From Loigolactobacillus binensis (GTDB taxonomy: Bacteria > Bacillota > Bacilli > Lactobacillales > Lactobacillaceae), in the NCBI RefSeq assembly GCF_005405165.1, contig NZ_BJDN01000001.1, positions 124,001-188,000 on the forward strand: a stretch of DNA of 64,000 nucleotides, written 5' to 3'. Below, piece after piece: positions 44,389-49,909 of the stretch. The position numbers and the translations under genes are program-made. The notes beneath the pieces were generated by a model. It did not search any database, had not been told where the DNA came from, and saw only the letters and a program-made list of their open reading frames with translations. The stretch's first letter is position 1. Every line of letters begins with the position of its first letter.

Positions 44389-46134
44389 TTATTTTTCTGG
44401 ACCAAATAATTCATCGGCACCTTTCATGATGCCGCCAGTATTGGCCGAAGTTACTAAATAGGTATAGCGTGCTAAGTAGCCTTGCCGAACTTTAGGCTGG
44501 AACGGTTTCAATTCCTTACGCCGTTCTGCAAATTCTGCTTCGGAAACTTTAACATTTAAGGTCCGTTTGATCATGTCGATGGTGATCTCATCGCCGTCTT
44601 TGATCAAGGCGATGGGGCCGCCAGCGGCTGCTTCTGGAGAAATGTGGCCAACGGCGATCCCGTGCGTCGCACCGGAGAAGCGCCCATCAGTGATCAAACC
44701 AACATCGCGCCCTAGGCCACGTCCAACTAGGTCAGAAGTCGGGTTCAACATTTCGGGCATGCCGGGGCCACCTTTAGGGCCTTCATAACGGATAACAACC
44801 ACGTCACCTTTTTTAACCGTACCATCATCGATTCCGGCAACGGCTTCATCATGGGAATCGAAGCAAACTGCTTTACCCGTGAAGACCCGAATGTCAGGAT
44901 CAACCCCGCCAACTTTAAGAACGGAACCATCAGGGGCGATATTACCATAAAGTACAGATAGGCCACCTTCGTTAGAATAAGGATCAGCCAATGGCCGAAT
45001 AACTTCATGGTTCAAACTCTTTGCGCCCGCAACATTTTCCCGCAAAGTTTTACCAGTGACCGTTGGCCGGTCGGGATGGATGATGCCTCCTTTTTCGATC
45101 AATTCATTAATAATCGCAGGCATGCCACCTGCTTCATGCACGTCCTGCATCGTCCAGGAAGATGATGGAGCGATTTTAGCCAAAAATGGCGTTTTGGCGG
45201 CAATGGCATTGATATCGCGTTCGCTGTAATCAACGCCGGCTTCGTGAGCGATCGCTAACACGTGCAAAACTGTATTAGTTGAACCTCCCATAGCCATGTC
45301 AAGTGCAATACAGTCGTCAAAGGTTTCTTTAGTCAAAAGATCACGGGGCCGAATATTATTTTTGACGACGTTCATTAATTGTTTAGCGGCTTGGCGTACA
45401 AGATCACGGCGCTCTTCAGAAACTGCTAAGGCCGTGCCGTTATAAGGTAACGCTAAACCACTCATTTCCATCAAGCAATTCATTGAGTTGGCGGTAAACA
45501 TACCCGCACATGAACCGCAACTTGGACAAGCGTTTTGTTCCAATTCAAGGAAATCTTCTTTACTTAGCTTGCCGGACTTAAAGGCGCCGACGGCCTCGAA
45601 CATGTTGGATAGCGTTACTGCTTTACCGTTTGGATCCAGGCCGGCCTTCATGGGACCACCGGAAACAAATACGGAAGGGACATTGGTCCGAGCAGCGGCC
45701 ATCATCATACCAGGTGAGATCTTATCACAATTAGGCATGTAGAGGACACCATCAAACCAGTGCGCGTTGACCACGGTTTCAGCAGCATCGGCGATAATTT
45801 CTCGACTTGGTAAGGAATAGCGCATCCCAATGTGGCCCATGGCGATCCCATCATCAACACCGATCGTGTTAAACTCAAACGGAATACCGCCAGCTTCACG
45901 GATCGCTTGCTTAGCGATGTCGGCAAGCTCACGTAAATGAACGTGGCCAGGGACGATTTCAATATAGGAATTACAAATTGCGATAAACGGTTTCTTCATA
46001 TCGTCGGTATTTTTAACTTTACCAGTGGCGTATAACAGACTACGTCCCGGTGCGCGATCCGTGCCGACCTTAATTTCGTCACTACGCTTCTGCATATCTT
46101 TACCTGAGATCGAAAAATTCAAGGTGTCACTCAT
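44389..46134 (-). CDS. ilvD: Dihydroxy-acid dehydratase
   Basis: A protein of 581 residues. It dehydrates 2,3-dihydroxyisovalerate and 2,3-dihydroxymethylvalerate to the 2-oxo acids of valine and isoleucine synthesis. Fe-S and metal motifs are visible: [46 protein letters not shown] and [21 protein letters not shown] precedes the ATG. It is transcribed away from ilvBN, on the other side of the T-box region. A perfect hairpin (46188-46211) lies in its leader. The DUF59 gene follows. Confidence 0.95.
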
Positions 46135-46187
46135 TTGATCAGCTCCTTTTATGATTAAAAAATGTGAATTCGATTAGGAAAACATGT

Positions 46188-46211
46188 AATGGTGCAAATG
46201 TTAGCACCATT
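46188..46211 (-). promoter_or_regulatory. Hairpin in the ilvD leader
   Basis: AATGGTGC (46188-46195) and GCACCATT (46204-46211) form a perfect 8-bp inverted repeat around 8 bases. It lies about 55 bases before ilvD and may be an operator or leader hairpin; its role is unknown. Confidence 0.5.
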
Positions 46212-46261
46212 ATTTTTAATCGTCAACTGCAAAAAATAATAAACTTTTTTCTAAAAGCCTG

Positions 46262-46290
46262 TTGACATAGCATATATGGCCGTGTAAAAT
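46262..46290 (+). promoter_or_regulatory. Promoter of the first T-box leader
   Basis: TTGACA (46262-46267), 17 bases, TAAAAT (46285-46290). Confidence 0.8.
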
Positions 46291-46329
46291 TAGCCTCAAT
46301 CGAAATAAAATTTAATTTTTATCTAATCT

Positions 46330-46684
46330 AATGGCTTCGACGAGGAAGAGTAGTCGGTAGCAGTACCTGAACAGAGAGCCTTGTAAGCTGAGAGAGGCAG
46401 TACTGTTATTGATGAAAGTAACCTTTGAGCTGTCCGGCTGAATAAAGTAGGCGGGATTGGGAGTGCCCATTATCGCACCAACGCATCAACTCTAAAAGGG
46501 ATGAGCTAGCTCGTTTCTACGTTTGTGTTTTATCTACAGGCTCCAAGCAGACGTAGCATTCTGTTTTTTAGAAGTTTGTGCGCGGCAGAGGCATTTACGG
46601 TGACGTAGATGTAAATTAAAGGTGGTAACACGCGAACAGCGTCCTTAGTGATCTAATCATAGATCACTTTGGGCGCTTTTTTTT
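46330..46684 (+). ncRNA. T-box riboswitch 1, specifier reads GTA (Val)
   Basis: Stem I opens with GACGAGGAAGAGTAG, the usual GA-rich and AGTA motif; its 3' side reads GATGAAAGTAACCTTTGAGC, with the specifier by alignment to leader 2 at 46418-46420 (GTA). The T-box itself is GGTGGTAACACGCG (46621-46634). The terminator is AGCGTCC-AGTGATCT with AGATCACT-GGGCGCT followed by eight T residues (46638-46684). Uncharged tRNA-Val would block termination. The first gene downstream is the zinc-ribbon protein, with ilvB further on behind a second T-box. Confidence 0.9.
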
Positions 46685-46687
46685 GTG

Positions 46688-46805
46688 GAGTGCGACAAAA
46701 GGCGCTCAGCTTCTGGAGTATAACCTAGCTTAGTGATAAAGAGACACGCAGTGGCTCGTTCGCTAAGCGTAGTTATACGGAAGAAGTTGCCTTTTGAAGC
46801 ACGTT
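46688..46805. repeat. Fold-back element copy 1
   Basis: About 118 bases starting GAGTGCGACAAAAGGCG. The arms CTTCTGGAGTATAAC-TAGCTTAG and CTAAGCGTA-GTTATACGGAAGAAG fold back, with outer AAAAGGC/GCCTTTT and inner GAG-ACACGCAGTGG-CTC. It is about 75-80 percent identical by eye to the copy at 49910. No ORF. Confidence 0.8.
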
Positions 46806-46965
46806 CGCGCCAACAAGCGCGATTCCACAGCCTTTAGACTAGATTGTTCTTTGACAACTACATCTTGAAGGCGGCATCTGGATCCAACTGTATCTGAGTA
46901 AAGATGACTAGTGTCCTTGGCTAGTGACTCACCGTTATTGTTGATTTTGAAAGGGGAATACCATT

Positions 46966-47178
46966 ATGGAAACAACTTATGAAATGATCGTCTGCGCGAA
47001 CTGCAACCATACCGTACCTAGCGGCAACTTCTGTACTTGCTGCGGACAACACCTCTTTGAAGAACAAGGGCATAACGTATTTAGTACCAGCTTCTGCGTC
47101 AATTGCGGCGCCCAAACACCGAATGCAAAGTATTGTAGCGTTTGTGGGTTTGAAAAAGATTTTGATCGTTATTTCTAA
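46966..47178 (+). CDS. Double zinc-ribbon small protein
   Basis: A protein of 70 residues. It carries four Cys pairs: VCANCNH and CTCCGQ form the first ribbon, FCVNCGA and YCSVCGF the second. This is the DZR/zinc-ribbon fold, a nucleic-acid or protein-contact module of unknown role here. GAAAGGGG precedes ATG 46966. It sits between two T-box leaders, downstream of the Val-type T-box, so it may be read on that transcript. Its stop is only seven bases before the promoter of the second leader. Confidence 0.8.
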   Translation: METTYEMIVCANCNHTVPSGNFCTCCGQHLFEEQGHNVFSTSFCVNCGAQTPNAKYCSVCGFEKDFDRYF

Positions 47179-47185
47179 AAAAGTG

Positions 47186-47215
47186 TTGACAATGAGATAA
47201 TACCAAGCGTATTAT
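47186..47215 (+). promoter_or_regulatory. Promoter of the second T-box leader
   Basis: TTGACA (47186-47191), 18 bases, TATTAT (47210-47215). Confidence 0.75.
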
Positions 47216-47254
47216 GAGCAATATAGAAATTCAATTACATTTAAATTAATACTG

Positions 47255-47523
47255 TGTTGATGAGCAAAAGTATTTTTCCTGATTTGATTAAGCGAACCGC
47301 GTTTGGTGAGAGGCGGTACCAATTAGGTTAAAGAAAATCGGCTCTGAGCAATGAATCGAAACTTAGTAGAATTCACTGGCTGCCACCATTATCTGGCTAG
47401 CGTATCGGCATTTTATGCCTGCACGTGAAGAGGTGGCTACGGCAATGTAGCTACGAATAAAGGTGGTACCACGTTAATATAACGTCCTTCAAGATATAAT
47501 TTTATCTCGAGGGGCGTTTTTTT
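47255..47523 (+). ncRNA. T-box riboswitch 2, specifier reads ATC (Ile)
   Basis: Stem I begins GATGAGCAAAAGTA; its 3' side reads GAAAATCGGCTCTGAGC, with ATC at 47337-47339. The T-box is GGTGGTACCACG (47462-47473). Terminator: AACGTCC-AGATA with TATCT-GGGGCGTT followed by seven T residues (47481-47523). Isoleucine starvation would allow read-through to ilvBN. Stem I is shorter than in leader 1. Confidence 0.9.
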
Positions 47524-47650
47524 ATTGGCAATAACGATTTACTGAAGCATTGTTCTCAAATTAGTTTGATCATTAGTTTCCAGAAAAGTGCATGTCACCG
47601 CCTTTTAGAGCCGCTGTTAAAACAATTTTAAAAAAAGTTTCAAAAAGCAG

Positions 47651-47678
47651 TTGACAATTTCAAAAATAAGAGTAAATT
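47651..47678 (+). promoter_or_regulatory. Possible promoter directly before ilvB
   Basis: TTGACA (47651-47656), 16 bases, TAAATT (47673-47678). It lies downstream of the T-box terminator, so it would give T-box-independent expression. The 125 bases before it show nothing else. Confidence 0.55.
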
Positions 47679-47725
47679 AAGTTACATCAATTCTAATCGT
47701 ATTTTAATCAAACGGAGGTGAGCAG

Positions 47726-49426: not shown

Positions 49427-49909
49427 ATGCGGCGAGTACTTACTTGTTTACTAAGCAATGATCCGGGCGTACTGAATCGCTTTACCGGCACGCTGACCAG
49501 ACGGCAAGTCAATATCAACAGTATTTCGATCAGTCCGGTAGGTGATAACAGTGCCTCGCGGGTAACGGCCATTGTCTATTTAGATAATGAAACAACCGCC
49601 AAACAGCTAGTTGCACAGCTGAATAAGCAAATTGACGTGCTGGAGATTCATGATATTACGGATCAACCACATGTTGAACGTGAGTTAGCGTTGATTAGAG
49701 TCAACGCAGCTGCGAACAAACGGGCGGAGTTGTTCGCAATGGTGCAACCGTTCCGCGCTGACGTCGTGGATGTCGCACTGGATTCACTCATGTTACAGAT
49801 CACCGGTTCACGTGATAAGGTCAATGCCTTACTTCGCGTGGTTCAACCGTACGGTGTTACTCAAGTTGTCCGAACAGGGGTTGCAGGCTTTACCCGAGCA
49901 GAAGGCTAG
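49427..49909 (+). CDS. ilvN: Acetolactate synthase, small regulatory subunit
   Basis: A protein of 160 residues. The N-terminal ACT domain is RRVLTCLLSNDPGVLNRFTGTLTRRQVNINSISI, which binds valine for feedback inhibition; the C-terminal domain starts near ERELALIRVNA. The length is typical. It starts directly after the ilvB stop, with GGAG inside the ilvB end. The stop codon is immediately followed by the second fold-back element. Confidence 0.93.
   Translation: MRRVLTCLLSNDPGVLNRFTGTLTRRQVNINSISISPVGDNSASRVTAIVYLDNETTAKQLVAQLNKQIDVLEIHDITDQPHVERELALIRVNAAANKRAELFAMVQPFRADVVDVALDSLMLQITGSRDKVNALLRVVQPYGVTQVVRTGVAGFTRAEG

Follow-up and report, generated by a model that had tools for sequence, protein, structure and literature searches.

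We found that the ilvBN operon in the 64,000-nucleotide stretch of DNA analyzed here (the window) is preceded by two complete T-box leaders, the first with a valine and the second with an isoleucine specifier, that a gene for a 70-aa double zinc-ribbon protein (ZR) lies between them, and that a conserved boxA-like element sits between the first T-box terminator and ZR. We put it at roughly an even chance that ZR is controlled by valine and ilvBN by isoleucine plus a bypass promoter, with the candidate boxA aiding valine-triggered transcripts. The order of the locus is ilvD (minus strand), P1, T-box 1, ZR, P2, T-box 2, P3, ilvB, ilvN, ilvC, and ilvA, and, judged by the ZR protein, its closest named relatives are Loigolactobacillus species.

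T-boxes of this kind are known, and tandem T-boxes before ilvB have already been published for the Bacillota, as described in the excerpted text of PMC12452182. The combination with ZR and a boxA-like element looks unusual. What is new is the linkage of ZR to ilvB in three layouts and the presence, downstream of terminator 1 and ahead of ZR, of an element resembling boxA. A search of the open-access literature, limited in coverage, found no report joining T-box, boxA, and processive antitermination and nothing on branched-chain amino acid biosynthesis in Loigolactobacillus; for tandem ilv T-boxes in Lactobacillus, it led to work on methionine regulation in Proteobacteria. The T-boxes, their specifiers and terminators, the linkage of ZR to ilvB, and the conservation of these features and of the boxA-like element were read directly from the DNA. 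The features are as follows.

44389..46134, minus strand: ilvD, divergent (PF00920, PF24877)
46262..46290, plus strand: P1, putative promoter of the valine leader (TTGACA-17-TAAAAT, matching the consensus at 11 of 12 letters; alignment of the region covers 6 lineages)
46328..46649, plus strand: T-box leader 1, valine (RF00230, 89.0 bits, E 1.3e-19, full model)
46418..46420, plus strand: specifier GUA (Val), from the Rfam alignment
46638..46686, plus strand: predicted intrinsic terminator 1, competing with the T-box 1 antiterminator (-20.2 kcal/mol, then a T run)
46846..46860, plus strand: boxA-like element GTTCTTTGACAACTA, with the core CTTTGACAACT at 46849-46859 (core shared by all 7 Loigolactobacillus loci)
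46966..47178, plus strand: ZR, gene for a 70-aa double zinc-ribbon protein (four CxxC pairs)
47186..47215, plus strand: P2, putative promoter of the isoleucine leader (TTGACA-18-TATTAT; in register in 5 of 6 lineages)
47248..47492, plus strand: T-box leader 2, isoleucine (RF00230, 112.6 bits, E 4.3e-24, full model)
47337..47339, plus strand: specifier AUC (Ile), from the Rfam alignment
47482..47524, plus strand: predicted intrinsic terminator 2 (-19.4 kcal/mol, then a T run)
47651..47678, plus strand: P3, putative promoter behind both T-boxes (TTGACA-16-TAAATT; TTGACA in 6 of 6 aligned lineages)
47692..47710, plus strand: conserved element TCTAATCGTATTTTAATCA, possible operator, behind P3
47726..49426, plus strand: ilvB, acetohydroxyacid synthase large subunit (PF02776, PF00205, PF02775)
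49427..49909, plus strand: ilvN, small subunit (PF10369, PF22629)

Two T-box leaders with valine and isoleucine specifiers

The sequence-only reading had proposed two T-boxes with GTA (Val) and ATC (Ile) specifiers, each with its own promoter and terminator. Both leaders matched RF00230 over the whole model, leader 2 above the curated cut-off of 93 bits and leader 1 just under it, so that a default Rfam scan misses leader 1. The identity of leader 1 is little in doubt, given its E value of 1.3e-19 and its presence across Loigolactobacillus and Paucilactobacillus: we found T-box 1 in all six other Loigolactobacillus loci and in both Paucilactobacillus loci. T-box 2 was present in five of the six Loigolactobacillus relatives, and the contig of the sixth (L. 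iwatensis) stops before leader 2.

As the specifier we took the triplet after GAAA on the 3' strand of the specifier loop in the Rfam alignment. This covariance-model alignment gave GUA at 46418-46420 and AUC at 47337-47339, the same codons as proposed. GUA occupies this position in all nine first leaders (seven from Loigolactobacillus including the window and two from Paucilactobacillus), and AUC does so in all six second leaders covered by sequence. Because the window's own genome (G000, Lactobacillaceae) contains many T-boxes (46 matches at E <= 0.001, 30 of them under Rfam's cut-off), the reading of specifiers could be calibrated on leaders of the same genome. The ValRS leader (L002) has GUA, the leader of a BrnQ-type transporter (L010) has AUC, and the IleRS leader (L023), read by eye, likewise has AUC, these three names having been assigned by reading the protein sequences, without a family search.

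In each leader, an antiterminator and a terminator can both be folded, and the two are mutually exclusive, with the strand CGTCC in common; both antiterminators contain a UGGU bulge, which we take to be the T-box motif. Terminator 1 is kept in the alignment of the relatives' leaders. The predicted stabilities of the two terminators (-20.2 and -19.4 kcal/mol) and the consensus matches of P1 and P2 agree with a promoter and a terminator for each leader. Together with the leaders of the same genome and of the relatives, these matches confirmed, at the level of sequence, that both T-boxes with Val and Ile specifiers are real.

A large stable hairpin was also predicted at 46690-46800, between terminator 1 and the boxA-like element (z -4.77 for the stretch 46690-46985). 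We rejected it as a third conserved switch: it is kept in the complete genome of a relative (G003) but gapped in most relatives.

Predicted promoters of the locus

A promoter scan of the stretch returned 8 sites on both strands, compared with 4.2 (sd 2.0) in shuffled sequences, and is therefore weak evidence by itself. In L. backii, a P2-like site was seen by eye farther downstream. That a further TTGACA promoter follows the second terminator was borne out by P3 at 47651, whose -35 element is kept in all six lineages, along with a downstream element, TCTAAT...ATTTTAATCA. By eye, a similar promoter and element precede ilvB in Paucilactobacillus and at one other locus (L143), which has neither a T-box nor ZR before ilvB and carries the P3-like site alone. 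The recurrence of this site suggests that P3 is probably an old ilvB promoter, perhaps controlled by a regulator, that the T-boxes supplement. The sequence-only reading had mentioned neither the conserved element at 47692-47710 nor the boxA-like element.

The sequence TCTAATNNNATTTTAAT behind the ilvB promoter (47692-47710) recurs, with 1 mismatch to the search pattern, just upstream of a homoserine-kinase-like gene in both the window's genome and G003 (L156 and L155, near position 1501), making it a possible candidate operator for an Ile/Thr regulator. Scans with an operator-like pattern gave 6 and 3 matches in G000 and G003, respectively, versus 2 and 3 control matches, and because the control matches were similar in number, we claim no regulon. 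On the ilvD side, an inverted repeat, TAATGGTGC-8-GCACCATTA at 46187-46212, overlaps the predicted -10 element of the ilvD promoter; relatives keep only part of it.

A zinc-ribbon gene linked to ilvB in three genera

ZR was found at high score in 17 of 397 genomes of the family, belonging to three genera, and is the next gene directly upstream of ilvB in 16 of them; in L. iwatensis, the contig stops first. All 17 are among the 48 family genomes that encode KARI (ilvC), and every KARI genome of the three genera carries ZR (7/7 in Loigolactobacillus, 2/2 in Paucilactobacillus, and 8/8 in Liquorilactobacillus). Two genomes of the same genera without KARI (G006 and G009) have no ZR. Matches of 30.7 to 36.7 bits in ORFs of 216 to 507 aa (G058, G138, G161, G267, and G299 and a second match in G002) were not counted as ZR. 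When genome contigs were scanned with one peptide pattern, 14 ZR loci in the three genera and one short match were returned, the latter being a Pyrinomonadaceae match over 30 residues that was not counted. An order-wide sample of 395 genomes gave a ZR match at E<=1e-9 only in the window's own genome, and as it missed other known ZR carriers, it says little about other families. The linkage to ilvB strengthens the suggestion that ZR may be part of the ilv pathway.

Three layouts were distinguished. The Loigolactobacillus loci have the Val T-box, the boxA-like element, ZR, and the Ile T-box. In both Paucilactobacillus loci, the Val T-box is followed by ZR and then by ilvB, with no second T-box. 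By eye, the Liquorilactobacillus loci have a promoter, ZR, an Ile/Val-rich leader peptide, and an attenuator-like hairpin, and no T-box was found within 1.5 kb upstream of ZR at any of the eight. In the sequence-only reading, no gene other than ZR stood directly behind the Val T-box, which is true of the Loigolactobacillus layout, and the possibility was raised that valine controls ZR. For Loigolactobacillus, valine control is a fair reading; it is not general, since ZR in Liquorilactobacillus lacks a T-box and precedes a leader-peptide attenuator. As ZR is encoded before the ilvB attenuator in two of the three genera, it could be made while ilvB is shut.

Upstream of ilvB, Ile/Val-rich leader peptides were seen at L090-L097, L127, and L137, where a CDLM tail is conserved past the control codons and attenuator-like hairpins follow (partly by eye).

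The eight cysteines of ZR, arranged in four CxxC pairs, are invariant in all 17 members, and ZR is under purifying selection (dN 0 to 0.06 at dS 0.9 to 1.6 among four close relatives). All 17 members match both PF12773 (DZR) and PF13240 (Zn_Ribbon_1) at E up to 0.01. The window protein scores 22.8 bits against PF12773, below the Pfam gathering cut-off of 27.3, and reaches the cut-off of no NCBIfam model. Matches to zinc ribbons in a search of PDB profiles were weak (best E 0.0041), and an AlphaFold2 model was weak (pLDDT 65.8, pTM 0.33). ZR was rejected as an attenuation leader peptide on the basis of its few branched-chain residues and eight invariant cysteines.

It was also rejected as a substitute for IlvN, since four Loigolactobacillus loci carry both ZR and ilvN. 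Elsewhere, ZR occurs without ilvN between ilvB and ilvC at both Paucilactobacillus loci and at two of five Liquorilactobacillus loci inspected (L109, L110, L111, and L114 in all), and the other three (L112, L113, and L116) have a short ilvN of about 100 aa in that position. We favor the view that ZR would be a zinc-binding accessory factor linked to acetohydroxyacid synthase or to its expression.

History of the operon

We fetched 31 other KARI loci. One of these (L129) spans only 1.1 kb, and three (L129, L147, and L148) had no ilvB by motif, leaving 28 in the IlvB tree; a further locus, L107, was left out because its contig stops before ilvB. An Rfam search of 10 of the 31 found two T-boxes (L127 and L119), neither of which lies on the strand of ilvB, and the remaining loci were screened for T-boxes by regular expression only. 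Four IlvB lineages without ZR (L143, L127, L137, and L120/L149) lie among the carriers, which implies that ZR is dispensable; the deepest fork uniting them is weak (75/92).

L143 and Paucilactobacillus form a clade whose sister (100/100) is L. bifermentans, a species with both the boxA-like element and T-box 2; both features are absent at the Paucilactobacillus ZR loci of that clade. The ZR protein of L. bifermentans (L108) shares 51/69 and 50/69 residues with those of Paucilactobacillus (L109 and L110) versus 40/70 with other Loigolactobacillus proteins. With both IlvB and ZR closer to Paucilactobacillus than to the rest of Loigolactobacillus, horizontal transfer of the L. bifermentans ilv operon seems likely. 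The boxA-like element and T-box 2 may be gained and lost as a pair; the number of independent changes is small, and this association could reflect recombination.

Proposed regulation

We propose that three promoters would serve this one locus. P1 would start the valine leader, and uncharged tRNA-Val would allow transcription to pass terminator 1 so that ZR is made. P2 would start the isoleucine leader, with uncharged tRNA-Ile allowing passage of terminator 2 into ilvBN, and P3 would supply ilvBN independently of tRNA charging, perhaps with a DNA-binding regulator acting at TCTAATCGTATTTTAATCA. Promoter use, the logic of the switches, the function of boxA, and the role of ZR are what we infer from the arrangement of the locus.

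Two terminators in series would by themselves impose AND logic on P1 transcripts. Transcripts from P2, which meet only the Ile switch, and from P3, which meet no T-box, are free of the valine check, so that a lack of valine alone would raise ZR and hardly affect ilvBN unless something else intervened, although acetohydroxyacid synthase is needed for valine. The position of the boxA-like element just behind terminator 1 suggests that it could repair this missing valine input to ilvBN. Once past the valine switch, P1 transcripts would carry a boxA-like NusB/S10 site, and this site would shield polymerase along the roughly 280 nt of untranslated RNA ahead of ZR and the roughly 550 nt from ZR to ilvB. 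The site may also raise read-through of terminator 2, in which case valine starvation alone would add to ilvBN expression. That valine and isoleucine starvation are integrated at this locus, as the sequence-only reading had envisaged, is plausible.

In its strongest form, this proposal would have boxA load the rRNA antitermination machinery after the valine checkpoint, so that polymerase runs through the isoleucine terminator and the locus acts as an OR gate instead of an AND gate, with ZR made whenever the first switch opens. This form we consider doubtful.

A boxA-like element between terminator 1 and ZR

The stretch from T-box 1 to ZR is 190 to 347 bases long and is poorly aligned and gapped save for one block, the boxA-like element. 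Its core, CTTTGANAAYT, is present in all seven Loigolactobacillus loci and in neither Paucilactobacillus locus; Markov shuffles of the seven leaders contained it in 18 to 51 of 20,000 sequences per locus. The same core occurs in the rRNA leaders and spacers of G003, where we take it to be boxA by analogy with other Firmicutes. A strict 15-base pattern, CTTTGANAAYTGDAY, was found 12 times in G003. The five rRNA operons account for 10 of these sites; of the other two, one precedes xis/int-like genes and one falls within a gene. The reversed control of the pattern had 0 sites in a set of 8 genomes and 1 in a set of 4. The pattern is exact in the ZR leaders of L. backii, L. bifermentans, L. iwatensis, and L. 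zhaoyuanensis (G001, G002, G004, and G007). The leaders of the window, G003, and L. jiayinensis have the core only. Because Paucilactobacillus genomes carry the rRNA-type pattern elsewhere, its absence before ZR in that genus is probably not due to a change of consensus.

Across 8 genomes, we inspected 12 strict sites that seemed not to belong to rRNA; 6 were in the leader of a mobile element and 6 in or near unrelated genes, and the latter imply that the pattern also arises by chance. The mobile-element sites are boxA-like copies, CTTTGANAAYTGAAT, in a conserved leader at L076, L079, L081, L082, L083, and L087 (near 1984, 2040, 142, 1518, 1643, and 1997 of the oriented locus, respectively). 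At five of the six, small excisionase-like and integrase-like genes (read from ORFs) follow, with a pemK RNA (RF02913) nearby; at L079, the contig stops soon after the copy. The element may borrow rRNA-type antitermination.

Published statements on boxA point both ways. As described in excerpts, an E. coli boxA partly rescued expression over a 567-bp noncoding 5'-UTR (PMC4807359), and the rRNA antitermination complex with SuhB also suppressed intrinsic termination in vitro (PMC6614801). On the opposing side, robust rRNA antitermination is stated to occur without Nus factors (PMC4807359), and the excerpted text of PMC10931766 describes uS4-dependent rrn antitermination as confined to Rho-dependent terminators, with the boxA of suhB acting on translation. 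Rho is present in all eight genomes of the genus.

The same block allows another reading, in which plain tandem logic applies: ZR would respond to valine alone, ilvBN would be expressed from P2 and P3, P1 transcripts would extend into ilvBN only if neither tRNA is charged, and the block would be a hairpin or other element with no part in antitermination. Contiguous T-boxes do need two uncharged tRNAs, an AND logic, in the excerpted account of PMC12452182. In four of six lineages, a small hairpin is also predicted for the block (z -1.5 to -2.4), which would either hide boxA or be the true signal, and the window copy has 11/15 identity to the rRNA leader boxA copy of G003 (13/15 for the best relative; 4 lineages compared). 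Against this, L. jiayinensis and L. bifermentans keep the boxA core with no hairpin predicted, and the core is that of the rRNA boxA of the genus, with 10 of the 12 strict sites in G003 being rRNA sites. We regard plain tandem logic as a real, if minority, possibility.

ZR and ilvBN might instead be two separate units, with P1 transcripts stopping after ZR, through Rho or processing, and ilvBN transcribed from P2 and P3 only, so that valine would have no action on ilvBN via RNA. The conservation of P2 and P3, the apparent sufficiency of P3 for ilvB at L143, and the presence of Rho are consistent with such a separation. However, no terminator was listed between ZR and leader 2 (a weak argument, as the terminator pattern scan listed neither T-box terminator), and at both Paucilactobacillus loci ilvB comes after the Val T-box and ZR with no second T-box in between. 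On balance, separate units seem unlikely.

A last explanation, that the TTGACA found in the block at six of seven loci is the -35 element of an additional promoter for ZR rather than a piece of a boxA, is very improbable, since no -10-like hexamer is conserved 16 to 18 bases away (alignment, by eye), the site is absent from the promoter scan, L. bifermentans has TTGATA, and conservation spans GTTCTTTGA and bases beyond it.

Comparison with known systems

Natural variation at this locus in the presence of T-box 2 and of a boxA-like element, between two separately promoted T-boxes, makes both the logic of terminators in series and the use of Nus antitermination on mRNA in Gram-positive bacteria testable in lactic acid bacteria. 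It also puts an uncharacterized zinc-ribbon protein beside acetohydroxyacid synthase.

Compared with RF00230, both leaders have the full-length match, specifier loop, antiterminator, and intrinsic terminator of a T-box; leader 1 differs in scoring just below the cut-off and in a long insert before the antiterminator. The excerpted text of PMC12452182 describes tandem T-boxes ahead of ilvB and of trp genes; the arrangement of two T-boxes upstream of ilvB is shared, whereas here ZR and the boxA-like element lie in between, each leader has its own putative promoter, and a third, bypass promoter follows. ZR resembles the Pfam zinc ribbons DZR (PF12773) and Zn_Ribbon_1 (PF13240) in its four CxxC pairs and in the match of all 17 members to both models, but the window protein is under the Pfam cut-offs and ZR is found beside ilvB in three genera. 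Set beside rRNA boxA and the mRNA boxA of E. coli suhB, the boxA-like element has the CTTTGANAAYT core of the rRNA leaders and spacers of the genus and is located in a long untranslated leader; it differs in following the terminator of a T-box within a biosynthetic operon, at a distance of about 105 nt from the start codon.
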